Part shown: positions 1 through 46,394 of the stretch, one piece after another
Layout: the number at the start of each line of letters is the position of its first letter
Position numbering within the stretch: the first letter of the stretch is position 1
DNA from: Heterotrichella gracilis
Lineage: Eukaryota; Sar; Xanthophyceae; Tribonematales; Xanthonemataceae
Direction of reading: 5' to 3'
Assembly (NCBI GenBank): GCA_032358255.1
Contig: JAULBX010012433.1
Coordinates: forward strand, 38,571 to 102,570
DNA length: 64,000 bases
Program-made: the position numbers and the translations under genes
The notes under the pieces: generated by a model
Seen by the model: only the letters and a program-made list of their open reading frames with translations
Database searches by the model: none
Told to the model about the DNA's origin: nothing

Positions 1-2575
1 TGGGCTCGCTGATTTCAAAAACTCTCACTGGGATCGAGGACCAACGCAGTTGGTACTCATGACGCCATTTACCTTCAAGTCTTCTGTTTGAGAGCCTAGG
101 GTTTGCAACACATGGACAGGTTGTCAAGGGGTCTAGCTGTACACACACTCATGCGGGGTGGTTGTTGTCGAACAAGAAACTCCCAACCCTCGCCAACCCC
201 CAGGAGCACAGGGCTGACAGTGCCTGGGGTGTGTAATACTAATGACATGGGGGGCCTTGATGTGAGTATAATACATGCACAACAACGGCACGAGAGGCCA
301 ACAGGGAAGTTGGGCTCAGCTATGCCAGTACCTCGTTTGAAGCTTGGTGAAGGAGATACACTAAAATGAACTGATTTTTGCGTTGCTAGGTGTTCCCATC
401 AAGAGCATGGTGGCCGGGGTTGCCATGGGCCTCATTCTGGAGGCAGATGGCTCATTTGCGGTGCTGACTGACATCCTGGGATCAGAAGACGCACTTGGGG
501 ATATGGATTTCAAGGTGGCGGGGAGTTCCGAGGGCATCACCGCCTTCCAGATGGACATCAAGGTGTCGATTGGCCTGGATTGGCTACGATTGCATCACAA
601 TGTGTTAATCGGTGGTTAATCAGGATCTTGGGATTACATTACCTGTCAGATGGACATCAAGGTACTGTTGTCCGAGTGTGGCTAGCCATTGCATCACAAT
701 ATGTTATTTAGTCGGTAATCAGGATGTTGGATTACACTGATTGTCATATGGACATCAAGGTACAGATAGCCAAGTTTGGCTAGCGATTGCATGATAATGT
801 GTTATTTGATCATTGATTAGGATCTTGAATCAATATTTTGTCAGAAATAGGGCTTGTTCTGCTGGCAGATGGACATCAAGGTACTGCTGGCCAGGATTGG
901 TCAGGGCTTTCCATCCATTTAATTGCATTCAGTTATCATTAGCCTAACTTCTAAATTGTACACCCATTTGTACGCACTCGGTTTCGAGTACTGTACATAT
1001 TACATAACACGGGTCATTTAATGACCGCGTTGGTGAGCATTGTGCAATCCCCCACTACCACACAGGTTGAAGGCATTACCCTGGAGATCATGGCGCAAGC
1101 ATTGAAGCAGGCGCGGGCAGGCCGGGAGCACATTTTGGAGGAGATGGCCAAGTGCAACCCCGCTCCCCGGAGAGCGCTGTCGGACTACGCCCCTCGCATC
1201 CTGCAGATCCAGATCAACCCAGACAAGATCGGCATGCTCATTGGGCCTGGTGGCAAGAACATCAACAAGATCCGGGAGGCGACGGGTACAAGCATCGAGG
1301 TATGGCTATTGGCATGGTACTAGGGTTGCTAAAACTAATGACATGTTTGAACATTAAATGCATGTTAATATTATATTAATTGTTCGTAAGCATCATTGCG
1401 CTTGCACTTCCAAAGTCAATTGTACGCCCACCGCCAACCAGTACAGCGTACAGCTGTACTATACTTTTGCCTATTATTCTTTTTTTACACTATAGTTTTT
1501 ACATTCCCGCAGATTTTGGAGGAGGGCAAGGTGGAGATCGTGTCCATCGACCCCGCCGCCCTGGAGGACGCCGCCTACCGCGTGCGCATGTGCGTGGCAG
1601 AGGCCGAGGTTGGCAAGGTGTACACCAAGTGCAAGGTCGTGGCCCTGCACGCCTTTGGGGCCTTTGTGGAGATCCTGCCTGGCAAGCAGGGGCTGCTCCA
1701 CATCAGTGAGATGGACATCGAGCGGGTGGAGGATGCCGAGAAGTGGTGCAAGGAGGGGGACGAGGTGGAGGTGATGTGCATGGACATCATGGCCAATGGC
1801 AAGCTGCGGCTGTCCAGGTGGGTGTGTCAGGATTAGAAAAAGATATAATGGGTTTTTTATAGCCTCCAGTTGAAGAACATATGCTTTGGTCAATGGAAAA
1901 TTCTGACTGGTTCCTGCAATCCAGGCCACTGAGATGCATAACAGGTCATTCATATGAATGCTGCGTCCGGTGATAATGCATGGGCCCGTCCTTTCCTCCT
2001 ACTGCCCTGTGCAAGTATTTTTGCTTTCCAGGCACTTTCTGGCCATGTTCGCCACCCAGGACTGTGTTACAAGAGCCTAGCATGTTGATGCTCTCCCCTG
2101 CCCCTGTCCCCTCCCCTCTCCGCTCTCCATGTCCCCGCCCTGGGCATCATTGTTGCTGGCAGCACGCAGATTAGTAAATTGAACATTGTGGGGAAATTGT
2201 GCATGGATCAGCCTTACCCTATCCTGACTGGGCATTGTGGTGTGTTGCAGGAAAGCGGTGCTGCTGCAGGCGCAGGGCATCGACCCCTTCGAGGCGGCGG
2301 CCGCAGCGGCTGCAGCAAGGGCTGCAGCAAACCCCTCGGACTCAGAAGACGGGGGCAGGGGGGGCGACCGACGCGGCGACCGAGGGGACCGCGGCGACCG
2401 GCGCAGCAACAGGCGGCCTCGCCAGGACAGCCGCCCGCCGAGGGTCAACAACGGGGGCAGTGCGGAGCCGGAGGCGCCAAGTACGCCCACTGCTGAGGCA
2501 GCGGCGCCGCCTGCGTTGGCGGCCACGCCACCTGTGCGGCCAGCTACCCCGCCTGCCACACCTCCGGAAGCCTAA
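1..2575 (+). CDS. pnp: Polynucleotide phosphorylase, C-terminal exons (5' part outside window)
   Basis: This is polyribonucleotide nucleotidyltransferase, a phosphate-dependent 3'-5' exoribonuclease/polymerase that in plants and algae acts in chloroplast or mitochondrial RNA decay. The visible exons are 390-562, 1066-1299, 1513-1817 and 2251-2575 (stop TAA), and all phases are compatible. The first exon carries the hallmark of the second RNase PH core ([18 protein letters not shown], then [10 protein letters not shown]). Exon 2 starts the KH domain ([20 protein letters not shown]). Exon 3 is the S1 RNA-binding domain ([15 protein letters not shown], then LRLSRKAV across the junction). The last exon adds an Ala-rich then Arg/Gly/Asp-rich, Pro-rich tail typical of a disordered eukaryotic extension. 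Bases 1-389 look like an upstream intron. The organelle cannot be assigned because the transit peptide lies outside the window. Confidence 0.95.
551..905 (+). repeat. Four degenerate tandem copies of an exon 3' end plus splice donor
   Basis: The phrase atggacatcaaggt, which is the last codons of the phosphorylase exon plus the GT donor, recurs at 551, 650, 748 and 869. The shared flanking sequence includes gattgcatcacaat and aatcaggat. Periods are about 99, 98 and 121 bp. Only the first copy lies in the open reading frame; the other three sit in the intron as decayed potential donors. Confidence 0.88.
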
Positions 2576-4424
2576 GTGCCGCGCCAGGGGTCGCCAACCG
2601 CTGCCAACACCAGCCGCTGCGCAAGCCGCTGTCCAAGCCATATGCTGTGCGTGAGTGTGCGCGAAGTGCGCAAACTGCTGCGACAGCCGATGCGTATCGT
2701 TTCCTGCGCAGCCTGCTGCTACAACCTGCTGCAGGACTACTGGGTAAATAGCACACCATAAAGCAGTGGTCGTTCACGGGGCATTGTCAGCTGGCTGACA
2801 TGAGGAGTTGCCTGTTCACCATTATGGCTCTCATATTGAGAAGATTTGTTTGAATCTTACTTTTGCTGGGTGCTACACACTTGCATTCTATGCAGTCAAC
2901 AGACGCAGACAGACAGGGACAGTGTTCACCATGATAAATTATCGCACTGTCTGTGTAGGCGGGGGATGAGTTTTGCGTTTTCAGATACCATGCATTCAGC
3001 TATCTGATTTTGTATAGCTATTGCCGTTGGCTTCTTGCGCATGTTGTCAACAGAGCGCTGTGTGTATATGCATACAACATATGGCTATCATGCCATTACA
3101 GCATGCCATGGTTTTTACGTAATGTAATTTATTCCAAGCTCGGAGGGTTCAATCTCTTTCAGTGAGCAGCTGCTGGCCTGCTGGTCAACCTGTCAGTGAG
3201 GGGTTTTGTAATACAGTTACTGTATTGTATTGCTTGTATCCCATGCATTCTCAGGGAAATTCCATTCAATGTTGTATGCACGATAGCAGGTTTTGCCTTT
3301 GTGCGAATGCGAGCGGCTGCCACATGGCCCTGACAACCCGTCACGGTGGCACCGGTTCACCCCGTAGCAACTACTGTGTTACAAAAATCTGCTCAATTTT
3401 ACAGAGTGCAACAAACAGCCGCCGGCGCGGCTGTTCCACTACTAGTGCTTACTGCGCAAGCATTATCTCTTACCACGTTATGTGGTATGGTACCCAGCCA
3501 GGTTCCTTCAACTGAATGCTACCTTGCTAATAGTTCGTAACCAATTGGTAATCATGCTATGGCGCAGCCAAGCTGGTCCAGAACTACTTATTCAGCGCAA
3601 AATCTAATCATTATGTAATGATTGTGCAATGCGCACTTTTACAACAGTATGTACTCACTAAGTAAAATTTAAAATGCCCAATGCCTTCCAAGGCTTGTAC
3701 CACCACGCCACAAACATCCAAAGTCATGTGCACCTCGTTGCAATAACTACCAACATGCTTCCCTACAACTATGCACGAATTCACAAAAATACTCAATAAC
3801 TAAAGCATACGTGTTTACATAGATGCACAACTGTACCTACACAATTGTCTAATCCAATGCGCAACACCAAATGCGAATATGTTCCAACCGTGCTAGCTGT
3901 ACTGATGCTATGTCTACACCACACGAAAATTATTCCATTGATGCCTATTCATGATGGAGATCCTAGACCTGCAGCAGGCAGCTGTCTACGTGTTTACCAT
4001 ATCCTAATTGGCCACTCTGGCTACATATTTCAACCCACCTGCGATGTCTGTCACAGAAAGATTGTTTTTGTGCCACATCATGGCCATGCCTGTCCACAGC
4101 CTGTCCTTGTGTATCCCCTTGTGCCATGTAACTGAGATATGCTATGTGACAAAGCATACATCTAGAGCAAGGTAATTTGATGCACAAGAAATCAGACCCT
4201 GTTTGACCCAACGTGTAAAACAACAACCTCATGCACAGTGGTTGGTAATCTGCCAGCTTAAACCAAATATGCTTCAGCCAATCGGATTAATTCAAGAACA
4301 TTGACAGTTGTTCTTGCCATCCATTGCCAAGCACGTCAACTAGTTTCTGCACCTACCCACCACCAAGCTTGCAATGATGCGTGTTCAAGCTTCAGCAATG
4401 CTATACAATCTAGAAGACACCCAC
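2576..4424. other. Convergent intergenic region
   Basis: This spacer lies between the 3' ends of the phosphorylase (+) and the LEA-like gene (-). I see no convincing coding exon, RNA gene or ordered repeat. A TGTAA motif, the usual green-algal polyadenylation signal, occurs at 3123-3127 on the plus strand about 550 bases after the stop. The reading frames here are short, low in coding quality and unlike any family I recognise. Confidence 0.5.
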
Positions 4425-4885
4425 TTAACTTCCACCAACAGCATTCTGCGCCGATGTCAGTGTCTCACATGCGGCCTCGCATGCAGACTGCACCACTCCT
4501 GGGCCCTGCTGCGCAGCACCAGTCCCACTGCCTTGCTCGCCTGGCGTATACCCTGAGAACCAGGAGACCACACATTTTAACCTTGCTTGTCATACCACAC
4601 TCCGCCACATGAAAACAATATTTTCCAAAACGTATGCCAATATGAATGCTATATACAATGAATACAACAGCCAACAAGATGTAAGGAACCACGCGCTTGC
4701 AAGTTGTGGATAAATTATGCCCTTTCAATTCAGCACTTTATTCAGGCAGTCGGGGGATTTTATTCCACACTCACCAACAGCCTGCTGCGCCGATGTTAGT
4801 GTCTCACACGCAGCCTCACATGCAGACTGCACCACTCCTGGCCCCTGCTGCACGACACCAGTCCCGCTGCCTTGCTCGCCTGGCG
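4425..4885 (-). repeat. Duplicated terminal exons of the LEA-like gene
   Basis: The last two exons (4879-4775 and 4540-4425) and their acceptor flanks are near-copies. Both encode GEQGSGTG, then QQGPGVVQSACEAACETLTSAQ. Exon 5254-5165 is a more distant relative (AACETLTSAEQAIG). These exons contain Cys, unlike the rest of the protein. In the last copy the donor is replaced by a GGS-stop ending. Confidence 0.85.
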
Positions 4886-7800
4886 TGTAACCTGAGGAAC
4901 AAAGAACTTGCCTCACCTACTGTACACAATACATACAGGACAATGCTCATTGACTACGATCATTTAAAATTAAAACAATTTCTCTTTAATGAAATGCATT
5001 TATAGGTCATCCTTTTGGTGATAGGAAGTTTGTTGTTCCACGACTCTGCATGTAAACGCAGAGGCTACACATTGCACTGCATATGCAGCCTACTGCAATA
5101 CAGAATAGGCTAGGGGTGCATACGTACTCTGGCATTAAATGTAGTGCAACATTCCCACACTTACCAATTGCCTGCTCTGCTGAGGTGAGGGTCTCACATG
5201 CAGCTTTCTGGCCTTCCTGCACCATGCCCTGCGCCCCCTCAACCAATCCCTGCCCTGGCACTCGTGCTGACGTGTCACCCTCTGCACAAATTATGGATTA
5301 TTGCATAAGAATATAAATGAAATACAGAGTAGGTAAAAACAAATTTCAGACCAACTTATAATGAAGCTGCTAATTTTTAGAATGCGAGTCAGTCAACTCT
5401 CGCAGGTTCCAGACGCAAGTTGGTGCTACGGTAACGCACTAATCTGCAAAAACCTGGTGCTGCATCAATAGGGCATTGGCCACGTCTTTTCAAAACCCTC
5501 ACCGCCAGGATTGGAGTTTCCATGGACCTCCCTATGGGAACCCTAACCCTGGCGATGCAGGTTTGGGAATAAATCTGGGTAAGGCCATAGTAACGCAGCA
5601 CAAGCTTCAAGGCCGATGTGCCACCCTGTGCAGCAACGGTACTGATTAGGGTTGTGCGAATGCACGCATAGTTTTGGCTATTACCGACGATCATGTCCAT
5701 TCTAAACCTATCCGGTAGGGCCTTTGCCAATAACTACTCTGCCAAAGCATTGTGCACACAGAACAGAGGAAGGTCAGGCAATGCACACATCATTCAAGGT
5801 CAAAGGGTGTGGCACATGTGCAAAAATGGATGTGCCACATTGGCCCTGCCCCTGGTGCTGTGTTATTAACGCCTTGTCCAGGTTATCCTTCAGTCCTCCA
5901 GCATGTATTGGGAACCCCAACACTGATGCTAGAGGACTGAAGGAATAACTGGACGAGGCTCTAATACCACAGCACCAGGTGCAGGGCCAATGTGCCACCC
6001 ACTGCAGCAGTGGCGAATGATCCGATCCCATCATTCCACACCTTTCCTTTGCCAAAAACTACCCTGCCAAAGCACAGTGCAACCAAAACAGAAGAAGATC
6101 CGGCAGTACTACACTCATCAGGCAACATCACAAGACGTGACACATGTGCAAATACTGAGGTGTCACTTGCTTGTCCAGCACTTACCCAGAGCGCGCTGGG
6201 TCTCATTCAGGGTGGCACACGCATCCTTGCGCACATCCGTGGCCTCCTCGCCCGCGCTCTGCACCAGCCCGCTACCAGCCTGCATTATCTCGGAAGCTAC
6301 CTCCTGCACCATGCGAGTACAACAAATATTAAGTTACAGGGCTGCGCTTGCAAAGAGTGAAAGAGCGGCCGCCTCCGTGGATAATTATCCCCTCACGAGG
6401 ACATTCATCATTGCATGTTCTTAAGAGCCTTCCCAGTGATAATACTCATATCCAACTTTGATTTACATATTAGCGTTTTAATTTAATAGCTGTGCGTAAT
6501 TTTTATGTAGTTTATATTTAATTTCATGGAAAACAAATATTTGCCACTCGGCGCCTGACAGCCCTTGCTGCAGCACGATACAATTTTGCACACCTTGGCA
6601 GCAATACGTTCAATACATACATGCAAAACCCTTTGGATATGCGGTATTAAATGTTGTGCTGCAGCAAGTGCAAAGCTATATTCCACTACAGCAGAGGCTG
6701 TCAGGTGGCCCACTGGTGAAGCGGTCAATGTTTAGGGTTTTAGGGTTTAGGATTTAGGGTTTAGGACTGGTGGCCCACTGGGTGAAGGTGCAGATAATGA
6801 ACCACGCCTATGGCCACACAGTGCTGTACTTGCCTCCCACATACGTATGCTCATTTCAATGGTTAAGCTTTATGTTATACATTGCTTAAAAATCCATACA
6901 CATTGGTGCAAGGTCATGCTTTACCTGCGCCACGCCAATGGCCACGCCAGTGCCGTACTTGGCTCCCTCAACAGCTGTGCTGGCGGCTGAGCCAGCAACG
7001 TAAGCTGCGGATTCGGTCCCAGCCTGGGCAGTGTCGAGGCTCAGCTGGGCCACCTTGTCAACTGTTGCATATGCCTGCGGGACAAAGATGTACTAAAATA
7101 AAATAGTACAGTACATTACTATTTTACTATTTTACTAATATAGTAAAAAACAATTTTTTATATTACATTAAAAATAAAATAGGACTAATAAAAAAAAAAA
7201 ATTGTTATCTTCTACTACACTGCACTTGTAGCACAGCAAAGTGCTTGCACCGTGTGTTGCTAATGAGGAATTGTGGTTTAGGGTTCAGGGATGCAAAGAG
7301 GGAGTGCATCGGGCATCACGCAATAATGGCTGGCCCATGAGGTCCTCAGTGGTACACCAACACTGGGTAGGCTTCGACAGGGGTATGCTTGTAGCGCGTA
7401 CCCCCTGTCAAGCCTGCCCATTCTTGGAGTATCACAGTAGCCCCCATGGGCAAAGCGCACAGGCCCATCATTACTGCGTGATAGCTGATGCAATGGCGGA
7501 GTATGCAGGACACATGCCCACTGCAGGACATATGCCCACTGGGGTGGCCTTGCTGGTGGACATGGAGCTGTTCTTTGTAAACAAGGTATGCAGGGGGGGA
7601 TAATCTGTTCCTTGCACAAATTGGGGTAGCAACTTTCCGATAGCTAGAGCGCATGTGATACGAATTTCACATCACCAGTGCATTCCGGCACAACATTGGC
7701 AATGCAATCGTACCTTGTCACTGATCTCCTTCCCCTCCTCATACCCAGTTCCATAGGCAGCCCTGGCCTCCCCAGCCAGCTGCCCCGCGGTCTGCATGGC

Positions 7801-10800
7801 GCTCTGCACAGCACTGGTAGCCGCGCCCCACACGCGCTGGGTCAAGCCCTGCCCGGTCTGCACCCCCTGCCCTGCCACCTCAGCACCCTTCTCAACTGTC
7901 TGCCGTGCGGTGGCGGCTGTCTGCCCCGCCACCTGCCCTCCCTTCTCAAGTGCCTGCTGGCCGTACTGCTGTGCGGTGACGGCTGTGGTGCCAGCAACCT
8001 CACCACGCTTCTCCACTGCCTGCTGGCCGTACTGCTGCGCAGTGGCGGCGGTCTGCCCCGCCACCTGCCCACCCTTCTCAAGGGCTTGCTGGCCGTACTG
8101 CTGTGCGGTGCCCACAGCAGATCCAGCCACTTCACCCCCCTTCTGCAGAGCCTGCTGACCGTACTCGCCTGCCTGCTGGGTAATACCCTGTGCCCCCTCC
8201 GCCGCCTGCTGACCCACACCCTGTGCGTACCCACCAGCCTGCTGACCATACTCCCCTGCCTGCTGAGCCACACCCTGCGCACCCTCCACTGCCTGCTGGC
8301 CCACACCCTGCGCACCCTGCTGCGCCTGGTGACCATACTCCCCTGCCTGCTGTCCCGTCCCCTGCTGCTGCTGACCGGGAGGGCACACCACACCCTTGGC
8401 GGTCTCGATGCCAGCGCCAATTGCCTGGCGACCCATCTCCACCGCCTGCTGGCCAATCCCCATCACCCCTGCACGCAACAAAGCATACTTATATCTTTTT
8501 TGCTACATTTCCTACTGCTGGAAATGGGGGTTGCATCACCCATCTTGCAGCTGGGTGATGCCGGAGTGGCTGCAAATATACCTTGTGACCCAGCCCTAAG
8601 GTCCAGCCCTAAACTTCAAAAACCTATGCCATAAACCCTAAGCCTCAAACCCTATGGTAGGGGGAACAGTGGACAGGTGGGCACTACCAATGCCGTTCTG
8701 AGCTCAATCCTCCTCCTTAATCAACACGCGCTTGTTCGAGGACAGGCTGCGCTCTAGTTGAGGACGAGGTTGGAGCTTAGAAGGGCAATGGCGGTGCCCT
8801 CCTGAGATGTTTACCAATTTTGAACTCCAACTCTTCACCATAAACCCTCGCTCCTACACAAATCAACAACCAGACTCAGATCAAAACTCAAAAAGGGTAT
8901 TTACCTTGTCCCAAAGGCCTAGCTCTAAACCCTAAAACCCCTACCTGGTCCGCCCAGGCCCTGCATCCCCCCCTCCTGCGCGCTCACGATCCTGGGCTGG
9001 GCATGCCCCACCACCTCCTGCTGCGTGATGCCGGGGTGGCTGGGCATAACCCCCACCGCCTCCCTCCCATACTCCTTTGCCTGCTGACCGGCCCCAGCCA
9101 CTGTGTCGTATGCCCCTTGGACATACTCCGCTGCCTGCTGCGCCACTCCCTGCGCTCCCTCCACTGCCTGCTGGCCATACCCCTTGGCCTGCTGGGCAGC
9201 GGCTGAGGCGTACTCGCCTGCCTGCTGGGAGATGTCGTGGGCACCCTGGAGGGTCTGCTGGCCTGCGGGTGATGGAAAGCATATGTCAGGCCTCAAACCC
9301 TAAACCCTAGCCTCAGAGATTAGTGTGATGTCTCACTGGGTTATTTGTGGAAGCTAGTGATGGAGAGCCACCCGCAGCAAAAACTGTTTAGTGTTTAGGG
9401 TTTAAACCATGAACCCTAAACCCCAAACCCTAAACAGACAATTGAAGACAAAGGCGTGCATGAGGCGGCATGAGGACAACGCATAGCTCCCATGAAAAAG
9501 GCATTCGAGGAAACAATCACTCAGAGGGGGGAATGCGGTGGCGGAGGGGGCAATGTCAGGAAAGCGGATGGGGGTTGGAAAGGGGGCGGGTGATGTTGGG
9601 GGGTTGTAGTGCAATTGCACAGGGAAATGTCATCAGAAGGACTGGACATTAGCAGCACGGCTATAAGATAAGAGGTAAGCCACCTTTGAGCATGACAACT
9701 TGTCTTGAAGAGAACAATGTATTTACAGCACATGGTTACCTTGTGATACCGAGGTAGCAGAAAGGAGCATCTAACGCATTATAATGAAGCGGTACAAATT
9801 ACTATGTACAAATTACTACGTACACACCTTGCCCTTGTAGTTTGTATGGGAGTGTTGTAGTGCAGCCTATCCTTTGCTATTCGGCTGTATCCTTGGTTAA
9901 AACCAATATTTAGTCGACAACAAGAAAGCAGACGAACAGCTTTGGATAGGGTGCACTACAATTCTCCCACACACATTCCCGCCTCAACCATCTCTTTCTT
10001 AGACCTGCCCTGCAAACCCTACACCCTACATCCTCAAACCCTGAAGTGCTGTGTGCTACCTAGTCCCCCACTCTACACCCTACACCCTAAAACCCCAAAC
10101 CCAGACCCTAAACCTCAAGGATGGAAAGTATATTCTTACCTGTCTGCTGGAACTGCCCTGCAACCTGCTGGGGCTGGCCTCCTGGCTGCTGTCTAGCTCC
10201 CCCACCTGCACCGCATGTGGAATGAAACCATTCAGGGTTTTGAGTGTAGGGTTTAGGGTTAGGGTTTAGGGTAATTCAGGGGCGAGTTGCAGGTGGGGGG
10301 GTGGCCAACGCCTCTCGAGGTGACGAGGAACATGTATGAACCATTTTGCGGTTACTGAGCAGCATGTTCATCACCACACTAAGCAAACTGCTGTTAAGAC
10401 ACCCTCCCCCACCTGCAACAAATGTGAATAATCAGCCTCATGAGCATTTGTGGAACATGCTGAAAAGTGGAATGATGCGATTAACATCAAATGCAAAATT
10501 TGCGCCTACAACACACATGCAGCCACACATCGCAAAGGGCAATTGGTAGCATGATTGCGACTGAAATGAAGACCAGGAACGCAGTAATGAACCTCCTTGC
10601 TAGAGCAAGAGGCTGTCAACATTGAAGGGTCAAAAATATCATTGTGGACCATCCAAAGCAGACACGGAGGATGGGCATATCGGAGGATATTGGGTGAAAG
10701 GGTCCTGCACCTAGTCAGCCCCTACATCTAGGTCTGGTACTGCGATGTATCACCAGTTGTCTAGCCTCTTTGCTAGTAAATTTCATGGTGGGGGCTGCTA

Positions 10801-13800
10801 GACATGTCTGGGGACAATACAGAGCTGAAGTTTGAGGTATATAGCGAGCTCTTGCAGCCTTCAGTGCCATCAAACTTGACCATGTGGGAGAAGGATAGTT
10901 AACAGTACAGGATTGAGAGTGGCTATATACCTATGCCTTGAGCTCTGTATAATCCCCAGCCAAGCCTTGCATCCCTCCCTTCTGTCCTATCCCCATCCAC
11001 TATCCTACTGGATTTTAACCAACCCCTTCACCTAACACCCTCCAAGCAACCTGCAACTCTCTCTACCCATAAATACTCGTCTATCTGCCAACAAACCACA
11101 CAGTACCTCGCACACTTTGAGAGGGAAGGGAGCAAGACAAAGGAACAGTTGATGGACAAGAACACCCCAGAATACTGTGACAGAAATGCCTGCACACACC
11201 TGTACCAGGCATTGCCTACTTCCCCTGCAATAAAACCCTAAGCACTAGCCCTAAACTGCAACCCTAAACTCCACGACAACAATAGCAGCCATGCTCGAAA
11301 CACACCTGTGCCAGGCATTGCCCACTTCCCCTACTAGAACACCCCAAACCCCAAGTCCTAAACTGCAACCCTAAACTTCATGACAACAATAGCAGCAGTA
11401 CTTGCTAACACACACACCTGTGCCAGGCATTGCCTACTTCCCCTACGAGAAAACCCCAAACCCTAAGTCCTAAACTGCAACCCTAAACTCCATGACAACA
11501 TTAGCAGCAGTACTCGCTAACACACACACCTGTGCCAGGCATTGCCTGCTGAGCCTGCTGCCCCGCTCCCTGTGCCCACTCCCCTGCCTGCTGCCCAGCA
11601 CCCTTGACACCCTCTGCTGCCTGCTGGGCCACACCCTGTGCACCCTGGTACAGCTGCTGACCTGCATGCGTGATAGGGACATGTGAGGCAGGCAAAATGC
11701 TAGCTGAGTGTACTCACGTCGATACCAACAGTCAAGTCTGTGTTCATGTTTATGTCTGACAACGGCCAATTCCATCTGTGTGTTCATGTCTGACTGAGTA
11801 CTAAGTAGTACTGGATAGATTTGTAATTAGTATGACAACTAAACAGTACTGGATACATTTGTAGTCGGTAGTATTAGCCCCCCTGGTGAATCCATGGCAC
11901 ATATATGAGCTCAGCTGGTGCGTCATCATCAGCTGCTGTATTATTTTTAAAAAATAATATGCTTGTATTCTTATATGCTCATGTCAGCCAGATCTTTCTT
12001 ACCTGTCCCAACAGTCCCCTGAGGTGCCTGCTGACCATACTCCCCTGCCTGCTGAGCCACACCCTGGGCGCCCTGATACCCCTTCTCCCCCGCTGACTGC
12101 ACAGCGCCCATACCAGACCCTGCAACACCCTGCGCCTCAGCTGGGTAGGGTGCAGTGCGTGCTTCCTCAGCCGCCTGCTTCCCCTTCTGGACAGACCCTG
12201 TTGCGAGATGGGATGTTTGGGTCAAAAGTCTGTGCTATTTTGTGGAATGGTAGAGTAGTGGGTGATATTTCCCCGACTCCCCAAGTTGATATGCATTGGT
12301 TGACAGTTTTGTCATTATCCAGGCTAACATTGGAAGGCAAATGCAAGGGATGATAATGAAGGATTAACATCTTCATCAATGCGCACAGTCCATTCAAGTT
12401 GATTTGCACTGCCAGAGTGGAGAAAAACAAACATATATACAGCACCAGAACCATGGGGTGTGTGGGGAGGCACACTGTGTTGTGTGGATGGGGGGGAGGG
12501 GGGGGGGAGGGGGTGACAAGGTAAGGAGCAACCACCCATGCATGCATGGTTGTGGTACGTACCCTTCAGGAAGCCAGGCACATCCACTGTATGGGCCACA
12601 AACCCAACCCAAAGTTTATTTTAAAATGTACTTCTCTATATTGCAAATGTCCCATTATCACACACGCACATTTGTGGCGTTTGTGCACGTACCCTTGAGG
12701 AAGCCAGGCACATAGCCATACGCGGTGTGGGCCACAGACCCCACCCCAGAATCCACAGCATCCTTGATCTGGTCCAGGCTGCTCTTCTCAACGTCGAATG
12801 GCTGCTGAGCTGCCTTGAGTGGAGGGATGTGCTCCACCGCGCTGTCAAGGATTGGCTGGGCCACGGCTTCAAATGCATGCCTTGACTCTGCAAAACATTG
12901 AGATTGTGTCAGTGCAAACGCTACCTTACCCTTTCAAGTATGCCATCAACTGGCACTGTCAGTGATGGACGTGCAAATGTTTCTGCATGGTACAGGGTTC
13001 CTCTCTGTAAACAAATACATGATTGTATGTGCATGGTGGGATATTGTGCACGTGGGATTAAAAAATGCATAACGACGTTCCTCATCTCAAGAATTGAGGG
13101 CGTTGGTTGAGGAAGCGATAGAACGACAGAGAGCCAACCTCTGAGGCTGGCTTTAACACTACGTGTGTTCCACAGCACCGGCCAGGAGGGGCTGCACCAC
13201 GGTTTCAAATGCGTGCCAGGACTCTGCAAATTTGTCGAGGCTAGATGCACTTGAGCCTGCGCAGTGCCTCATCCAAAGCACCGGTAAAACATGCAGGGGG
13301 AATGAGTGCCCACCAGGTGTCAAGGTTGGGCCGCTCACGCACCCAGTACGTTCCGCCGCAACTTTGGATGAAAAGATGCGCAGGCTCAAGCGTATCTGGC
13401 CAAAACACTGGCATAAGCTGTAATATCCTGACTATATGGTAGCTCCAAAATAGAGTACCCAGTGCAGGATTGATCAAGTAACATACGCATGCGCTACAAT
13501 TAGAATAGCAGACGCGTGCACGTTCATAAGTCAGGCATGCGCATATGGGCACCTATAAAATAATCATTTGCCAACATGCCCACGGGCAGGCGCCATACAG
13601 TAATGTGGATGCTCACATTATTGTACTCTACCAAAACCCTAACCCAAAACCCTAACCAGACATACCGCTGTAGGAGTCAATTGACCTCTCCAGGCCCTGC
13701 TCCACCAGCTTCCCAGTGGTGATGGCAGCTGCCTCCCCTGCTCCCCTTGCATACTCCACTGCGGCGCCGGTGTACTCCACCGCCTTCTCCGCACCCTTGC

Positions 13801-16800: not shown

Positions 16801-19800
16801 GGCCCCTGAGACAGAATGCACGTGCATCTTCCCACCTGGCCAGTTGCCATAGCAGCAGTATCAGTGACTGGCTGGAGGTAAGGCTCAACTGTACCGGCAG
16901 CAACGCCTGCGGTACCCGCCACCACATTGGCAGTAGCCTCAAACGCGCGCTGGCCTGCAGGAACATAATAATTAAGTAAGCTCTAGTTACTAAAATATAG
17001 GCCACTGAAAATTAAATATGCAATCTCCCACTGTACTGAAATATTTTTCCACAGGAAAGTGATAAACAAATCCCAACACAACCCGATGCACATGGTAATT
17101 CAAGAGACCTTGCAGCCAGGCACATCAGGTTAGCTACACATGTGATGTTTACGCAATTAGGCTTTACGCAGTTCGCCTTGATTGAATACATATGTCAGAG
17201 GGTGCCAACAGTTAAAGAAGTTACGTTATTGTGCTGGCCCGCCCATGGCATGTAGAGACAACTTGTAGGCTACTATCTCCACCTGGCTGTGGTGCAAAAC
17301 GCATGTCACTAATTCCTCGCATGCATGCAAAGCCAACATTTGGCTTAGCACCACACCACTGTTTCAACTGTGCCTTGAATTGCATGGTAAGTACATTATG
17401 TGTATGATACACATGCAGCCTCTCGTTGCAATCAACCCTTGGCTTGGCAACACATACGTGCTTCAACTGCGCCTGAAAGCGCATACTAAGTGCATTTTAT
17501 ACGCTGCCCACCCATTGCAAAACATGCAAACAATAGGTTTTTCCCAGTAATTCAGTACATTTCCAAAAATGCATATGTAATCAACCCTTGCCTTGGCATC
17601 ACGCACCTGTCTCAGCTGTGCCTTGGAGTGCTTGCTGAGCCAGCCCAGTCACTCCCGGACCCTCTGGGCACACCAACTCCTTGGCTCCCTCAATGCCTGA
17701 GATTGCGCCCTCGCGGCCGTACTCTTTTGCCTGCTGTCCAGCAGCCTGGACTCCCTCCGCTGCCTGCTGGGCCACGTCCTGTGCACCCTGGTACAGCTGC
17801 TGACCTGCATGCGTGGCATGTGTGTGAGGCAGATAGCTCTACATCCACACTAGATTACGCAATACTGACATGAACCCTGAAGATTTTAGATACATTTAAA
17901 TGGACAGGGGGGTTATTGCCAATTACAAATGCCATTCAAGAACAGGCTGCACAGTACTTCGATATCTGCAAGTTGGAAAAATCTGGAACAGGCACAACAA
18001 GTCAGTGTGAGGCACGTCAATACCAATGGCCAGGTGGTGTGTTGCTCTTACCTGTTTCAGCAACGCCCTCAGCGGCCTGCTGGCCATACCCCACTGCCTG
18101 CTGCCCAACACTCTTGACACCCTCCGCTGCCTGCTGGGCCACACCCTGTGTACCCTGGTACAGCTGCTGACCTGCATGCGTGACGAAAAAAGATGCAGGG
18201 AGACAGTTGTTAGTTGTGGAGATATAAGACAGGAACACAATGCTTTCTATTATGCTAATGCATTTATCCCATCGACAAGCATGTCTACAGAACCAAAGCA
18301 TTTCTCTAACAAGGCCTGGGAATTGATGCTAAACCCTGACCGGAACCCTAAAGTGCGCACTGTCATTACTGTATGACATACAGAAATGACATACAGTAAT
18401 GACAGTGCGCAACTTCAGGGTTCCAATTAGGGTTAAACAGTTTAGGGAAACTGTTTGTTACATTGCAACTTGGATACATACATTGTTCCAGACAATTTCC
18501 AGGCCTGTTAGCAATTTTATACTCAAACATATATATCTATGTAACTCATTTGTGCTGCCAAAGAACGACAAGGCAGGGACAACGATAGAAGGTGCACCAA
18601 ATTCATTAGGCCCTGTAAGCCATTCATACTATTTCATGCGACACTCTTACCTGTTTCAGCAGCACCTTGCGCAGCCTGCTGGCCATACTCTATTGCCTGC
18701 CGCCCAGCACCCTGAACACCCTCCGCTGCCTGCTGGGCCACGCCCTGTGCACCCTGCAGCGCCTGCTGACCATACTCCCCTGCCTACTGGGCCACGCCTT
18801 GGCCGCTCTGGTACAGCTGCTGACCTGCATGCGTAGACGATGTGAGAAAGACATATCCACCACAAGTTGCACAATGTGGGGTGGGACACCACTGATATCA
18901 CTGTCACAGGAGGGTTACCCATATATAGATAAGTAGAAAGGAATGGTGCATGGTGGGTTCAACAATCCAAGTCAACATCACCGACATGATAACATACACA
19001 TTGCGTGACATCTTGAATGGCAACCTTACCAGTCTCAGCAGTACCCTGTGCTGCCTGCTGACCATAGCCGCTGGCCTTCTGAGCCACGCCCTGCGCCCCC
19101 TCCACTGCCTGCTGGCCCACGCCCTGCAAACCCTCCGCTGCCTGCTGACCAGCCTCCCCTGCCTGCTGCCCCGCACCCTGCTGCTGCTGGCCTGGAGAGC
19201 ACACCACCCCCTTGGCTGTCTCCAGGCCTGAGTCAACCACCTGGCGAAGCTTGTCCAGTGCAGGCTGGCCTACGCCCTGCACACCCTGCTGCGCCTGGGC
19301 AGGGGCTCCTCCTGCACCGTTCCTCACTACACGTGCCGAGTCCAGGGCATGGCCGGCGCGCATGCGCCCCGCAACATCTGCACCCATGTGACAATGATCA
19401 GTTAACCACCCAAGGACTTCATGCAACATGCCTGTGAAAGTACATTCTTGTGTTGGATGCAGATTAGCCCTTCTGAAGGCCAGATTTGTATCATTGGTAA
19501 AAAGCTTGGCATAATCAATCAGGGAATGTGTATTTGACATTGCAGACACTGATGTGCCATCTCATTCCTTACCTGAACGATACTGCTCAGGAGTTGGTCC
19601 AGACACATCTGGATCAGGTGCCTCCTCCTGCACATCACACACCATCTATTGCCAAAGTGCGTTACAGACAACTTGCAAAACAAAAGGGGCTGACTCTTTA
19701 TTAGTACTGAGGGTGGTTTGTGTGATGCCCATCCCTGAACAGCAGGGTACGCCTGTGCTTACCCACTCCCAACCACTCCCAGCATGACCATGCTATCTCA

Positions 19801-22772: not shown

Positions 22773-24119
22773 ATGGGACCTCCTCGCAAGGCCAAGAAGG
22801 AAGGTGCAGCAGCAGGCTATGTGAAAAACTTCAAAGTTGTTCTGGTGAGTGAGGGCACATGTTTTGACCATGTACTGTGACTTGTCAAGTGCTGACCAAT
22901 GGTGGCTACTAGCTCCCAGGATTTTAGGGTTTGTTGGTGCATAAGGACGATACACTATACCCTAAACTGTTTTGGGCCTCATCATCTACCACTCCCAGCA
23001 AGCCAAGTAGTTGCATGCCAGGTGATCAGGCAGCTTTGTATTTGCTTCAATCGTCCCTTCAGGGCATGGGATGCACCTCTGGCTTGTGTGAAGGCTCTGT
23101 TGCGCTTTCCAGAGCCAGTGAAGTAACAACAAGTAGTGTAAAATATGCTCAAAACTTATTACCTACATAATCCACTTAGATACTTACTTGCACAGATACC
23201 AACCCCTGGTTTGTGTGCCCTTCAGGTCACAGGATGCTCCTCAGGCCTAGGCGAGGCACTCTGCTACGCTTTCCACAGCCAACTGAGTAATGACAAGCAG
23301 CGTCTGTTCAAGGTGTACGCAAGCGCCCGCTTCCCCTCCTCCATCCAGAAGCTGAAGAACGATGGCATGGAGGCAATCCACCTCAACGTCAAGAGCCCAG
23401 ACAGCGTGCAGGCTGCCGTGGGGCATGTGATCAATCAGGAGGGCAGGATTGACGTCTGCGTGTGCAATGCTGGGATCATGGCAGCGGGGCCCGTCATTGA
23501 GCAGCCCATGGATGAAATCAGGAATCTCGTGGACACCAACTATTTAGGCCCCCTGGTGACGGCCAGGGCTGTGGTCCCCTACATGGTGAAGAACAAGCAG
23601 GGGGGATTAATAGTCAACATCAGCAGCGTGGGAGCCACCATGACCAGCCCCTTCAGCGGGGCCTACTGCGCGTCCAAGGCCGCCCTGAACGCAGCGAGCG
23701 AGGCCATGCGCATGGAGGTGGCGCCCTTCGGCATCAACGTCATGGTGGTAGAAGCGGGGGGCATCAAGAGCGCCATCGGGCTCAACGCCAGCAAGATCTC
23801 CAGCGTGGAGCGGTACTTTGATGTGGGGTCGCTGTACTACCGGGTGGCAAAATACATCAAGGCAAGGGTTCAGCTGTCACAGGAGGGCAAGAATGTGGCC
23901 AGCCCGGAGGGCGTGGCAGCGCACATCGTGGCGGCGGCAAGGAACGTCAACCCCCCGTTCAAGATCCGGGTGGCGGGCAACGTGTGGAAGTTCACCATCC
24001 TGGGGTTCCTGCAGAAGTGGCTGGCGCCTGTGTATGTGCACCAGCGCTTCACCGCAAAGTTTGGGCTATCGCTGCTGGCTGACAACGGGCCGGAGCTCAA
24101 GAGCGAGGACAAGACCTAA
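22773..24119 (+). CDS. Classical short-chain dehydrogenase/reductase, AYR1-like (321 aa)
   Basis: Exons are 22773-22844 and 23226-24119 (stop TAA); the intron is phase 0. The Rossmann cofactor motif VTGCSSGLGEA directly follows the first exon (NFKVVL). NAG (VCNAGIMAAG), the catalytic Ser (NISSVGA) and YCASK complete the classical SDR active site. The overall pattern, including VEAGGIKSAIG after the catalytic helix, recalls 1-acyl-dihydroxyacetone-phosphate reductases (AYR1) and related sterol/retinol SDRs, so a lipid-reducing NADPH enzyme is likely. The substrate is inferred. The Lys-rich start (MGPPRKAKKEG) is not an obvious targeting peptide. The C-terminal hydrophobic stretch (WKFTILGFLQKWLAPVY) may attach it to a membrane. 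Confidence 0.9.
23058..23135 (+). repeat. Decayed upstream copy of SDR exon 2 start
   Basis: About 163 bp upstream of the real acceptor lies cccttcagggcatgggatgc, which matches the true junction cccttcaggtcacaggatgc. It continues through a degraded TGCSSGLGEA coding stretch (GCTSGLCEG) until a stop. It is an acceptor-side exon-boundary duplication left in the intron. Confidence 0.78.
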
Positions 24120-33472: not shown

Positions 33473-36400
33473 TGTTTGCCGCTGGTGCAGCGTTCACGCC
33501 AACGTTTACAAAGCGTCAGAGCTGGTAGTTCTAGACGGCTGCGGTGCAGATCCCAGGTACGTTGTGTATCTTATGTGGCTCGTGCATGCATCGTGATGAT
33601 GAGTCACCTGATGACGACTCACCTATATGCATGCATATCCAATATCTAACTGGGCACCTCTGTCTATCGCCCACTTGCTGCTAAACGCCACTATAAGCGT
33701 CTAGCATTGGTTTCTTGTACCATTTGTACTAACCCTCCTCACATAGGCCCGTGACCCCTTTTTGTTTCGCCTGCAGGGTGCAGATGTGTCTGCTACTGGC
33801 ACAAGTGCCACGCCTGGCGCAGAGCAAGCCAGCCTGGATCCTGCCATATCTGCTGAGCTGCAGGCGGCAGAACGGACTCAAAACCTGCAACAGCTGAAGC
33901 TTTCGGTGCAAGTCATCACCAACATGGAACAGGCACGTGTTTTCATGGTTTGGCAAGCAAATGGCAGTCTCATAGTGGGCAGTGGCAACACATAAATATT
34001 TCCCTCTCCCTGTGCTGATTCATTCCTCAGTGAACATGCTCCAATTATCTGCACGCCCTCCACAAGCTCCCAGCACCCACTACTTTATTTAACGTCCACG
34101 CCCACTCGCTAGCCCCAAACCCTTTTGCAAAATCCAAAACCCTAACCCGTAGCCCTTTGCAACCTTTACCCTGAAGGGCACAATTCTGCTCCCCAACCTG
34201 TGCAAGTCAACCTCAAAACCCTAGTCCTGACTGCAAGTGCACGCCGCCGAGTGGGACGCACGTGTCACAGGCAGGGGGGAGGTGGACCCATTCCCGCCCG
34301 TCATGTCCCACGTCTAAAAACCATTCCTATCTGCATCACATGCTCTAAACACATGCTGCGATTGCATGCACACCGATAGCAAGCTCGTTCAACCCACATC
34401 CAAGCCTAAAATCCTAACATTGAGCACGAAAACCTTTGCCCTGGCTGCAGGTGAACGCTGCCGAGTGGGACGGATGTGCCACAGGCAGGGAGGCGGTGGC
34501 CCCTTTCCTGCTCGTCAAGTGCCACATCATTCCTCTAAGCAATTCTCCAAGTCCATTACGCACACCGATTGCAAGCTCGCTGTACCCATTACCTCAGCAT
34601 CCAAGCTCAAACCCTTCTCTTGGACACGAAAACCCTTGCCCTGGCTGCAGGTGGATGCTGCTGAGTGGGATGCATGTGCCACAGGCAGTGGGGAGGTCAA
34701 CCCCTTCCTGCTGTGGACCTTCCTGCATGCGCTAGAAGCCTCGGGGTCAGCCGTCAGGTAGGTTATCCCAAATCCTGCCGTAGGAAAGAATTAGCAATAG
34801 TGCAGAAAAATTTGGCATTTTACCGGATGAAGTTTACTCCATTTTGGGAAGACGTACCCAAAACGTCCTCATTCCTCATGTAATGAACTAGTATTGTTGA
34901 TGTTAAGCCTGTTTTCCATGTACAACAGGGATGAAGGCTGGCTTGCGCAGCACGTGCTGGTGCGGAATGAAGCCACCAAGGAGCTGCTGGGGTGTGTGCC
35001 CATGTACCTGAAGGGCCACTCCTATGGGGAGTACGTGTTTGACCACAGCTGGGCGGGGTACGCCAACCGCCTGGGGATGCCTTACTACCCCAAGCTGCAG
35101 GTGGGTGATGGTGCAGGGTAGGGCTGTGGTGGGCCTGGCACATTGGTTACGGTAGTCGCATGCACTCCTGTAGTACAGCCACAAGCTGCAGGTGCAACCC
35201 GTTGAGGGTTTAGGGTTTAGGGTTTTGGGTTTCCTTCAAGTGCCCTATTATCCTAGGCTGCAGATGGGTTAGGGTTTCTCTGATGCGCTACACCCCAAGC
35301 GGCGTGTGCATTACGGTTCTCTCGGCAGGGCTTTTGCGGACACCCCTTGAACCGGCTCCGTTGCTGACCAACTACTGCCGTTGCGCCAGGTGGCAGTCCC
35401 CTTCACACCAGTGACAGGTCAGCGCCTGCTGGTCAAGCCAGGCTGGCAGTCTGGACCTGTGCGGCGGGCCATGGCAGAAACCCTGACCACAATTGCAGAC
35501 GAGCTCCAGGTGGGGATGGCATGCGCAGAAATACTCAAATAAAATATAATGAAATTATAAGTGGAATTTATTGTACTGTACAATCTGGACCTGTGCGGCG
35601 GGCCATGGCCGAAACCCTGACCATGATAGCAGACGAGCTCCAGGTGGGGATGGCACACGGCTGACTTAGTTGAAAAATAAAGGTATATGAAATCATGATA
35701 CAGCACATCATGAAAGTGAGCGTTAAAATCAAGCGGTAGGTAGTCGCAGTCATGCTGCATGATTTGGCCATGCACTGTCCATCTGCACATGAGCGGCAGT
35801 GTGGATCTTGTGAGGCCTGTGTGTGATGTTTGTGACTGGAGGGTGGCAAGTCGGAGAATAACACAAGAGCTGCCCGCAGGTGTCCTCCCTGCACATGACC
35901 TTCAACACCCAGGAGGAGAGCGATGTCATGGCGCAGATGGGCTTCCTGCAGCGCACAGGCATCCAGTACCACTGGCACAACCAGGGGTACAACACCTTTG
36001 ACGATTTCCTCATGACCCTGAAGCAGTCAAAGCGCAAGAACATCCGCCAGGAACGCAAAAAGGTACCCACACTTTGTTTCAGTTAGTAATGGATCCCCAC
36101 TACCAATGGTATGGGATGTACGTTGGTGATGAACGTACGTACTATGTTCCTATATCACATACACTGCCATTTGCTGGGAGCCGTTGCCGTTTTACACATG
36201 TGATTTGTAAATTTTTCCCTGTATGGTTCTGTAAATGCTGCATGTCACTGGTGTATCTGCTGATAATTCCTGAACGTGTGGTTGTCTGAAACCCTAAACC
36301 CTTGTGCTGGCAGGTTGCGTCGGAGGGTATCAACATGAAGCGGCTCACCGGGTCTGACCTGAAGGCGCACCACTGGGATGCTTTCTACGAGTTCTACAGG

Positions 36401-39206: not shown

Positions 39207-39511
39207 ATGTGACTGTCAAATAAAATCTTGTAAAATCTTGCTGGTAAGCCTTTCGGCAAATAACTTCAACACACACAAAAACAAATATAACGTGTTCCTT
39301 CCAGGTAGGCAACACATGGCTGAAGAGGTATAAACTTTAAGGGCACCCTTGATAATAAGCAGCAGCAGCCGCAGGAAAAAACAGTGCGGCTCCAAAAACA
39401 TTTCAACTGGCAGTATTAAATGCGCAATTTATAACTTTTGCGTGTCCATGCCTGCCCAGCGTGCCATGCCACAAAATCCAGTCCGCTTAAATACAGCGGA
39501 CCCCCCAGTGC

Positions 39512-43084: not shown

Positions 43085-46000
43085 ATGGGCCCGGTGGGCG
43101 ACCAAGGTGCGGCACCGTTTGTGCTGCAGCAGTGCCACTTCCAGGGTGTCGTCACCACAGAAGGCTTGAGAGAAGTTTACAAGCATGTAAGTGCTGTTAC
43201 TGCTTGATGTTGGTACACACATACATTTATCCTGGGCACTCAGCTGCCACACCTTGCCCACCAGTGGCAACAACCCATCACCCCAGAGAAGTGTGGTTCC
43301 CTCCATTGTGTCATAGCCACAAGAGTGTCAGCTTTGAAGTGTTTTCCAGTAAAAATGGTTTCCCATTTTCTTGCAGGCACCAGCTGTTGTGCCTGCAGCC
43401 TCAAACTTCCCCAAGGTGTATGCACTCTCGCCAACCCATTGCCCACCTGCCGATGCTTCGCAAACCACTTCAGTGCACGCCAACAAAACTGCAGTGGAGC
43501 CAGTGAAAAGCGAATCAGGTGCCCCTGTGGTCCCACAAAACGGTTCACTGGGCATTCAGGATGTGGCCAAGGCCGCGCGCACCTTGATGAAGCGGCACCT
43601 GGTGCAGGACGGCTGTGTGCTGTTGAGGGGGTTGCAGGGTTTTGTGCAGCAGCCAGAGAACCTGCAAACTCTCATGGAAGCGGCAGGGTTCAGGTGTGCT
43701 GGTATGCAGCTCGCTAGCCAAATACCAGGGACACGTGCAAAAATCCTGAACCTAAACCCTAAACCTTGAACCCTATCGCTCATGAAAGCGGCGGGGTACA
43801 GGTGTGTCTATGTGCAGCTAGTTAGCCAAGAACCAGGGAAAGTGCCTATATCCTAACACTAAACCCTAAACCCTATATTAGGTCTTACTTACCATCACTC
43901 TAGTACCAAGCTCTGGCTCCTTCTGCAGAATGACTGATGGGCCATGAGTCATGGATGCTTGTAACATGTAGACCTAAGCGTCGCTTGGTCGATATTGAAA
44001 ATGGGGTTGTACCATTTACAGGGGGGTAGAATTCGTTGGCTTGTTTGACAGAGACGACCTGGTGGGTGGGACCAGCCGCATCTACAATGCCACCAGTGCA
44101 CAGCGGGTGAAGCATGGCGGGTATGGCTTCATATCATCGCACAATGAGAACTGGTACAGGGCCCCTGACATCGCCAACACCCTGGCGTTCTACTGCCATC
44201 AGCCGGCGGTGGAAGGGGGGGAAACCATGGTGACACGAAACCAGGATCTCACAGCTGTCATTAACCCTAAGGCGAGCTGGTGCTAAACCCTTAACCCTAA
44301 ACCCTAAAGAATATGCTCATTGCAATTTTGCTTTAACCTGCTTGAGTTTTTTACATGCGTGGGTGCCCTGCACAAAGCGTCTAGTCATGCCTCTGAACTG
44401 CCATGCACATGCATCCAAGAAAGAATCCATGCACAAGCTTGGATAGTGTGCAGCACATGGCAAGATGCAGACACGCCCGTCAAATTTCCCACATCCAGAA
44501 AACTCATTAGCTGCTGCACTGCATGCATCGCCCCATTTCAGCCTCCATTTGTGACTTAATGAATCACGAAGCTCAGTCATTAAGTCATTAAAAAATAAGA
44601 GCTAATCATTGGACCATGTGCCGCACGCAGATCATACAGCGGGTACAAGCCAAGGGCGGCTTCCACATGCGCACCCTCACACCCTCCATGAAACATGTGG
44701 AGAGCCTTTCAGATGACAACCCATTCAAGTCCCGGCTGGTGGGATGGGAGAAATCCCGGGACTGGGGACACCGCGACAAACCATGGATTGAACAATATTG
44801 GGCAAAGCGGCCTTGGGCGAAGTTTGAGTGGCTGGAGGATGGCAGCATGCTGACCACGCTTCCTTTGCCAGGTAAATACTAGAAACAGAAAAATATGTAT
44901 TGTTGCCAGCTGGGCATATTATAATGGATAGCATTTTTTGTCTGTTTTTGTAGTTATAATATGCTTTTGTTGTATGTGCCTGAGTCATTTCAGAGGATTG
45001 GTTCTGAGCGACACTCATGCCCCAATTCTATCATAGAGGACAACGGTGATATTTGCCCTTTGTCAACCATTGCTAGCACTCTTGGGGTGCTTAGTGCCGC
45101 TGTGTGGGTTCATGCCACTTGATTGATTGCGCCAGGCTGGGGACATTCCTTACCTTCCATGCTGGTGCAGCGCGTCAAGAGCAATGGTTGCATATGCATT
45201 GCATGTGACGGCCATTGGAATGCTTTGTTGCATGCAGCCCAGCACATCCAAATTTGCCACACAATACATGTATAAACCAGCACATCCAAACTTCCCACAC
45301 AATACATGTATAAATAATGCAAAGGGCGCCCCAGGTTTGGTTGCGCCCTAGCTACAGGACCTAGGGCAATCCTATCTTTGAACACCATGATGGCGGTCTG
45401 ACCCTCAACCCTAATATGTCAACCCTGAACCCTATACCCTGTCCATGTAACTCATAGTACATTTCCTTCTCTATGCACCGCTGCCAGGACAGATATTTCT
45501 CTCTGTGGCATAACGTTGAGTATGACTTGACAGTTGGTTCTGCTGCAGGCTTGGCGACACACCCTGTGACCCAGCAACTTATGTGGTTTGCGCCGCTCAG
45601 GGCCAAGCTCAGCAGCCAGCCGCAGCTGCTTGAAACTGGCATGGTGTCGTGGTGGTGCGCCTTCCAGTCCCCTACCTTGCCAAGGAAGTCCTCACTATGC
45701 GCAGTATGCCACCACAGCTATGTAATGCATCATGGTGCCAACATGGAGCCATCAGCCAACAAACTAACAATTGTTAACATGTTCAAGGAGTCCTGGCGCG
45801 CAATGTTCAAATTGATGGAATGGGGCCAGGCTTTAATCGCCACTTAATCATTGTATCACTTGGTGCAACATTGTCAGTGAAGATCGCAACCTATTGAGTG
45901 ATTCCTTGGTCACTACAAAGGAATGTCACTAAGTCTCAGGTACCAACCCGCCTGTGTAGGTATGCTGACGGCTCTCCCATTGAGGACGAGGTCAGCGATG

Positions 46001-46394
46001 CTGCACAGGCCGCCACCTGGCAGGCATCAGTGGCCCTGCGGCTGGAGGCAGGGGACCTCCTGCTCATAGATAACAGACAGGTGCGGCTAACTGGCTGCCA
46101 CTCTGTGCATTTTGGGCTGATAATAAACATCCTGTCTGCCACCGGGTGAGACAGTTGATTTGCTGCTTTTTTAATGCATTGCCCCATTTAGTGCATTTCA
46201 GCAAACGCGTGACATGTGAATGGTGCATTAACACTGCCAATTTTGCTGATGGCAACAAATCCAGACCAGATGGTTCACGCATGGTCACGTGTCCCATGCA
46301 ATGCCATGCTGCTGTGCAGGTCATGCATGCCAAGCTGCGGCACGAAGGCGAGGGGCGCACCTTGTGGATTCAGCTCAGCTACGACACCATCTGA
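43085..46394 (+). CDS. TauD/TfdA-like Fe(II)/2-oxoglutarate dioxygenase, copy I (401 aa)
   Basis: Exons: 43085-43186, 43377-43693, 44022-44271 (GC donor), 44631-44871, 45549-45648, 45960-46080, 46320-46394 (stop TGA). It parallels copy H: GCVLLRGL, metal motif SSHNENWYRAPD, AFYCHQPAVEGGET, LEAGDLLLIDNRQ, VMHAK and GEGRTLW. Five of the intron positions match H in place and phase. Exon 44631-44871 corresponds to two H exons, so one intron was lost here or gained in H, and I has an extra N-terminal exon. The 45648 donor (GTGGTG) was chosen by phase and alignment to H and is the least certain junction. It probably shares the unknown small-molecule hydroxylase role of H. Confidence 0.87.
43671..43870 (+). 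repeat. Duplication of dioxygenase I exon 2 end plus donor
   Basis: The end of exon 43377-43693 (ctcatggaagcggcagggtt, then AG-GTGTG) is copied at 43779 with period 108 bp (ctcatgaaagcggcggggta). The following intron text (gcagct, gttagccaa, accaggga) is repeated too. The copies are separated by CCCTAAA-type motifs. Confidence 0.9.

Follow-up and report, generated by a model that had tools for sequence, protein, structure and literature searches.

The window analysed here, 64,000 bp from the xanthophycean alga Heterotrichella gracilis (bases 38571-102570 of contig JAULBX010012433.1, hereafter C126, which measures 102,570 bp in an assembly of 68.5 Mb and 903 contigs), contains nine splice edges, six donors and three acceptors, for each of which the adjacent intron holds between one and three direct copies. 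We tentatively attribute these copies to short duplications made locally and repeatedly as breaks are repaired in a mutation-prone region, whereby events within exons would be lost and those carrying a splice site would survive, a reading to which we give a probability of about 0.4. How introns lengthen and alternative splice sites originate is poorly resolved because the source sequences are usually gone; C126 offers some two dozen cases of different ages in which source and copy stand side by side, so that what is copied, over what distance and with what use can be tested directly in one organism.

Splice edges are copied into adjacent introns

Genes were modelled ab initio with an exon-chaining gene finder trained on this DNA, which in the window has ~50% GC, abundant TTTAGGG-like repeats and spliced genes. 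C126 genes to the right of 46.5 kb were excluded as unreliable, and negative coordinates denote C126 sequence upstream of the window. The polynucleotide phosphorylase (PNPase) gene was predicted in two pieces that were joined by hand for the tests, and three short predicted exons in it (-2849, -2664 and -3368) were removed as exon-end copies, a choice that favours edge-to-intron labels. Pfam also backs the upstream Aa_trans and GT61 models, the latter fused with a dynein light chain. The genes with copied edges in the window are:

-5932 to -1120 and 407 to 2575, plus strand: PNPase gene, homology to solved PNPases
4425-19645, minus strand: LEA-like gene, ab initio model with edges lacking homology support
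22773-24119, plus strand: SDR gene, Pfam match
33183-37674, plus strand: FemAB_like (DUF482) gene, Pfam match 2e-144
43085-46394, plus strand: TauD-like dioxygenase gene, Pfam match

All nine edges had been named in the first-pass annotation of this DNA, and alignment bore out each of them (9/9, with one to three copies), including the 562 edge of what had been called a phosphorylase, which is PNPase. Exons 5, 10 and 12 of the present LEA-like model were taken as exons 7, 12 and 14 of that annotation. The donors are PNPase 562, FemAB 35509, dioxygenase 43693 and those of LEA exons 17607-17804, 12693-12887 and 11530-11661; the acceptors are SDR 23226, FemAB 34651 and LEA 12887.

390..562, plus: PNPase exon with duplicated donor edge, homology contiguous across junction K|V
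548..630, plus: parent block at PNPase donor 562 (alignment)
647..732, plus: PNPase donor-edge intronic copy 1, GT at 662 (alignment)
745..827, plus: PNPase donor-edge intronic copy 2, GT at 760 (alignment)
863..909, plus: PNPase donor-edge intronic copy 3, GT at 881 (alignment)
11523..11558, minus: parent block, LEA donor of exon 11530-11661 (alignment)
11193..11446, minus: array of three intronic copies of that donor (11411, 11299, 11193; ~112-bp units)
12687..12746, minus: parent block, LEA donor of exon 12693-12887 (alignment)
12557..12610, minus: intronic copy of that donor edge (alignment)
12828..12894, minus: parent block, LEA acceptor 12887 (alignment)
13164..13230, minus: intronic copy of that acceptor edge (alignment)
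17576..17634, minus: parent block, LEA donor of exon 17607-17804 (alignment)
17334..17474, minus: two intronic copies of that donor (17427-17474, 17334-17386)
23218..23303, plus: parent block at SDR acceptor 23226 (alignment; Pfam)
23055..23139, plus: intronic copy of SDR acceptor edge, 73% identity (alignment)
34629..34711, plus: parent block at FemAB acceptor 34651 (alignment; Pfam)
34215..34297, plus: distal intronic copy of FemAB acceptor edge (alignment)
34429..34512, plus: proximal intronic copy of FemAB acceptor edge (alignment)
35447..35521, plus: parent block at FemAB donor 35509 (63 bp exon and 12 bp intron)
35581..35655, plus: intronic copy of FemAB 35509 edge, 93% identical, after a 59-bp spacer
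43671..43765, plus: parent block at dioxygenase donor 43693 (23 bp exon and 72 bp intron)
43779..43872, plus: intronic copy of dioxygenase donor edge (alignment)

Edge copies exceed expectation

In 94 kb of C126 there were 92 local direct pairs, against 0 in one dinucleotide-resampled control, and pairs within 1.5 kb were direct in 106 cases and inverted in 3 (all C126, LEA repeats included), an excess of direct orientation that fill-in duplication predicts. Edge specificity was assessed against a null in which each gene's exon structure was rotated with the duplications kept fixed, counting as edge clusters both edge-to-intron and edge-edge clusters. On C126 below 46.5 kb, 23/37 clusters were edge clusters versus 12.7±2.4 by rotation, and without LEA the figures were 17/25 versus 7.8±2.0, with 0/2000 rotations as high in either test; the 2000-rotation test on masked DNA labels the PNPase 562 array intron-only, and unmasked data show it crossing the edge. 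In the six gene models supported by Pfam or PDB (86 edges in all), 14/19 clusters were edge clusters versus 4.5±1.8 (0/3000 rotations), and these 14 stand against 4 intron-only ones. Unmasked pairs without LEA, which are not all independent, comprised 19 edge and 7 intron-only pairs.

We also simulated uniform duplication in which exon-internal events were purged and copies drifted, at the same detection threshold. Tandem units of 90-253 bp yielded ~49% edge cases (680 detected through their exon part and 55 only through their intron part, against 650 intron-only), and short blocks, under ungapped scoring, an edge share of 21-27%. On these assumptions, purging and detection bias account for part of the edge excess and not for all of it. 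Ordinary tandem duplications falling anywhere, with exon-internal ones purged and edge copies visible for longer through their conserved parent exon, would call for no new process; the long-unit simulation places the edge majority near their expectation, several cases are true tandem arrays, and the deficit of intron-only clusters, taken by itself, falls short of significance (P 0.05-0.14). The observed 19 edge to 7 intron-only pairs and 14 to 4 clusters nevertheless exceed the short-block simulation, and the block lengths described below depart from those of simulated young tandems, making this untargeted account unlikely.

Copies are arrays or spaced, exon-rich blocks

The process makes direct copies of ~25-100 bp, longer in arrays, within a few hundred bases of their source, and the copies are of two kinds. 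Arrays with 90-214-bp units repeating both exon and intron parts are found at 562, 11530, 34651, 43693, -3615 and -13194. In the eight clearest spaced cases, listed next, 41-71 bp of exon and 2-19 bp of intron past the splice site are copied and a spacer follows.

FemAB: 35509
PNPase: -3525, -2918, -2317, -1763
GT61: -19356
Transporter: -12407
Topoisomerase-like gene: -28455

The nearest copies lie 90-336 bp from their source, and many copied blocks are only 47-77 bp. Tandem duplication of ~100-200-bp units, as proposed earlier, is not supported for every case, since at least eight are instead 47-77-bp exon-rich blocks with a spacer. Across the genes tested, the majority of local copies take in a splice edge, and exon sequence makes up most of the spaced ones.

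Comparison of the flank next to the parent with the flank next to the copy gave no match beyond shuffles in 7/7 spaced cases (all but -2918; z -2.6 to 1.3), two of which are old enough for a true match to be missed. In FemAB 35509 the 59-bp spacer has no homology to the sequence 3' of the copy; at its 93% block identity the flanks of a plain tandem duplication would still align. Simulated tandem copies of at least 90% identity align over the whole spacing (aligned/spacing ratio 0.97-1.06), compared with a ratio of roughly 0.15-0.82 for observed pairs of about 90% identity in non-LEA genes (masked data).

In the spaced cases direct repeats thus flank sequence that lies outside the repeat, and the spacers searched are single-copy. 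With a spacer set between two like blocks, the layout looks like an insertion bounded by direct repeats, such as an introner or another mobile element dispersed among introns would leave on inserting with a long target-site duplication. All five DNA queries (two copy stretches and three spacers) matched only their own place in the 68.5-Mb assembly (best candidates scored), unlike introner elements, which have many similar copies across genes, and for the cases searched such an element is an extremely improbable source.

Exon-derived parts are mostly 71-98% identical to their source. Copies of so many ages indicate that the process is recurrent, in agreement with the continuing process suggested by the first-pass annotation. 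An assembly artefact, which that annotation had allowed for, might be entertained for a mixed assembly that includes bacterial-looking contigs (C111, ~39% GC, long open frames); artefacts would be near-identical, whereas the copies differ by 2-29% from their sources and vary in extent and spacing, so that assembly error can hardly explain them. Stretches of bacterial appearance (35-43% GC, long open frames) also occur among the SDR matches on several contigs, and the assembly is probably not axenic.

Copies fit neutral drift beside constrained parent exons

Synonymous changes make up 67/151 substitutions (44%) in the exon-derived parts, in a set of pairs, not all independent, that takes one pair per copy, drops one gene-end pair and excludes LEA and PNPase 562. 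The expected synonymous share is 28.6% with all sites drifting and ~42% for a drifting copy of a constrained parent, the latter by our own arithmetic on the assumption that parent amino-acid changes are cut to a tenth. Two of the substitutions create stops. The exon-derived parts thus fit neutral drift beside constrained parent exons, and the synonymous share and stops argue against coding use of the copies in general.

Function of the copies as in-frame mini-exons, or as alternative splice sites or decoys under selection, with the intron flanks diverging, has several features to recommend it. At PNPase -2918, two 63-bp copies, each preceded by AG and followed by GT, are 94% identical and in frame; at PNPase 562, 14 bp are identical across all four copies; and in both sets the exon-derived part agrees better than the intron part among copies. 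GT is kept in 19/20 donor copies and AG in 11/16 acceptor copies at the aligned place (by eye). Set against this are the neutral substitution pattern, two stops in the SDR copy and a PNPase homologue that has no inserted exon at the junctions covered: the top alignment is unbroken over junctions -3615, -3525, -2317/-1763 and 562 (for example QMDIK|VEG at 562), and the -2918 junction lies just beyond the aligned part. We therefore regard selected function as quite unlikely overall, and the -2918 pattern as suggesting constraint, conversion or an older tandem unit.

Copied donors score about as high as their parents or better in the six donor cases scored, so they could compete with parental donors. 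The earlier proposal that introns are lengthened and supplied with splice sites is upheld in that introns become longer and most copies keep GT or AG, which makes these candidate splice sites.

Edge copying is regional in the sampled DNA

Upstream of the window, C126 carries 15 more copied edges, bringing the hand count to 24, against 176 modelled edges; the edge near -26090 is counted among the 24 and is not itself a modelled edge. Three of the 15 belong to a gene that we take to be topoisomerase-like.

PNPase: acceptor -3615 (three copies); donors -3525, -2918 (two copies) and -2317; acceptor -1763 (two copies)
GT61: donor -19356; acceptors -18630 and -18132
Transporter: acceptors -13194 and -11874; donor -12407
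Topoisomerase-like gene: edges -28455, -27913 and near -26090
C126 upstream: acceptor -9757

Two other contigs, C24 and C46, had no edge copies at 0/134 edges in 58 kb (C24 0/108; C46 0/26, with 13 introns modelled), which differs from 24/176 on C126 with a Fisher P of 1e-6 in a sample of three contigs only. In C24 200-250 kb there were 4 clusters, none edge-to-intron, where rotation expects 1.4, no significant deficit alone, and one low-complexity repeat overlaps a donor; C46 100-108 kb had no local pair. Since 58 kb of other contigs shows no edge copies, a genome-wide mode is unsupported, and edge copying looks like a regional process in the sampled DNA and not a general rule. The recurrent mode at exon edges put forward by the first-pass annotation accordingly holds on C126, where enrichment exceeds rotation and two simulations, and does not extend to the 134 edges elsewhere.

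An origin of C126 and C24 from different organisms was considered and is unlikely because third-codon GC (0.742 vs 0.740) and splice motifs are alike. CpG is depleted in exons, introns and intergenic DNA of both contigs (observed/expected 0.47-0.60), which suggests cytosine methylation in this alga. TTTAGGG-like runs number 53 in 41.6 kb of C126 introns versus 4 in 23.2 kb of C24 introns, and several adjoin edge copies (for example -12470, -3941, 11193-11547, 43750). As a cause, these telomere-like repeats were rejected: TTTAGGG-like 9-mers lie at or near 7/23 hand-listed clusters versus 4.6±1.9 expected (P 0.16) and occur in 10/20 introns with edge copies versus 17/68 without (P 0.052), and no link is claimed within C126.

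Proposed break repair in a mutation-prone region

Direct orientation, local range, single-copy spacers and unlike flanks together point to break repair with fill-in at a high regional rate. A recurrent short-range duplication process is active in this region, in which staggered double-strand breaks, for example from paired nicks, may arise mainly in or next to exons and have their ends filled in and joined again, at times with added spacer DNA. Duplications wholly inside exons would be purged by selection, whereas an event that includes a splice site would leave the outer donor or acceptor usable, so that the extra copy ends in the intron and survives. Introns would grow as a result, with decoy splice sites as a by-product.

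Exon-biased breaks, RNA-templated repair or partial selective retention would each produce exon-rich blocks. RNA-templated repair, in which intron breaks are patched from the local unspliced transcript, would leave sense-strand, exon-rich patches ending just inside the intron, matching the direct orientation and block shape observed. Tandem arrays whose intron parts are long can arise in its absence, and spliced cDNA is an unlikely template because the copies include intron bases; we consider RNA-templated repair improbable. Region-specific copying that preferentially takes exon ends and their splice site into the neighbouring intron in sense orientation, guided by exon identity or transcription, is rather unlikely; if true, it would seed introns with ready-made splice sites.

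Several observations weigh against repeated duplication in break repair as we propose it. The breaks and their positions are postulated here, and since uniform breaks, purging and detection bias give too few edges, the exon bias is assumed and not explained. The shortage of intron-only events is weak alone (P 0.05 with LEA and 0.12 without; 0.14 for pairs; 0.09 in the homology-backed set), the mean intron share of blocks (0.23) does not differ from the rotation null (0.20, with fully exonic blocks counted in that null), and the skew in intron share relative to the short-block simulation is only modest (P 0.01). The tandem arrays of 90-214-bp units need no spacer. At -2918 the copies agree at 59/63 positions in the exon-derived part versus 79/116 plus 22 gaps in the intron part, and their spacers are partly alike; at -18132 and -11874 the block starts within the exon, 5-7 bp in, and leaves the splice site uncrossed; and the copy at -27913 had been modelled as an exon. 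Finally, C24 and C46 show no such duplication process.

Other repeats in the window

The stretch 51365-55083 holds seven to eight blocks, each ~75-100 bp long and for the most part 75-95% identical, at spacings of 295-678 bp; the sequence between them is mostly unlike, and in being limited to blocks they look like the exon-edge copies. In a single plus-strand frame they can be read as short exons rich in Ser and Gly, which follow a signal-peptide-like exon (47970-48074). The LEA-like gene, the first part of which has a weak Pfam Phasin_2 match, repeats whole exons (4433-4562 versus 4772-4901, 88-90% identical), and its exons 17715, 18082 and 18681 have exon sequence, and in part acceptor sequence, in common. 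A 57-bp tandem repeat of 2.5 copies (95% matches) occupies 59191-59330.

Relation to known systems

Internal gene and exon duplication, reportedly treated by Gao and Lynch in 2009, likewise involves intragenic duplications that include exon-intron structure; the copies on C126, unlike these, are mostly partial exon ends, apparently neutral and clustered in one region. Small tandem duplications at filled-in breaks are said, in work known to us through citation, to have been reported by Vaughn and Bennetzen in 2014 and Schiml in 2016. Small tandem duplications from filled-in break ends are also documented in the part of PMC8355091 consulted, and they resemble the copies on C126 in being local, direct, tens of bp long and, on the reading proposed here, due to break repair; the exon-edge bias found here is not described in that part.

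The remark in the first-pass annotation that no described mechanism accounts for such copies was too strong, as the portions of PMC4974935 and PMC3443670 on intron gain present both tandem genomic duplication and staggered-break repair as published models. In tandem genomic duplication, exemplified by the potato RdRp case (PMC4974935; reviewed in PMC3443670), a short local direct duplication within a gene likewise yields an extra splice site. That model, as given in these portions, creates a new intron that takes its GT from one copy and its AG from the other, whereas on C126 an existing intron is lengthened with the copy inside it; in the window the second copies sit inside introns already present and not at the opposite splice site. 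Intron gain by repair of staggered double-strand breaks in Daphnia, as outlined in PMC3443670, leaves flanking direct repeats separated by other sequence, as here; those repeats are described there as short, unlike the 47-77-bp repeats on C126, which take in a splice site and lengthen an intron already present. The exon-rich block shape is not predicted in the passages of PMC4974935 or PMC3443670 on these models. Copying of exon edges into introns was not found described in the literature searched, which comprised titles and abstract openings, with most subscription papers outside its coverage. Edge copying on C126 is thus a variant of small-duplication processes already known, and its exon bias is unexplained.

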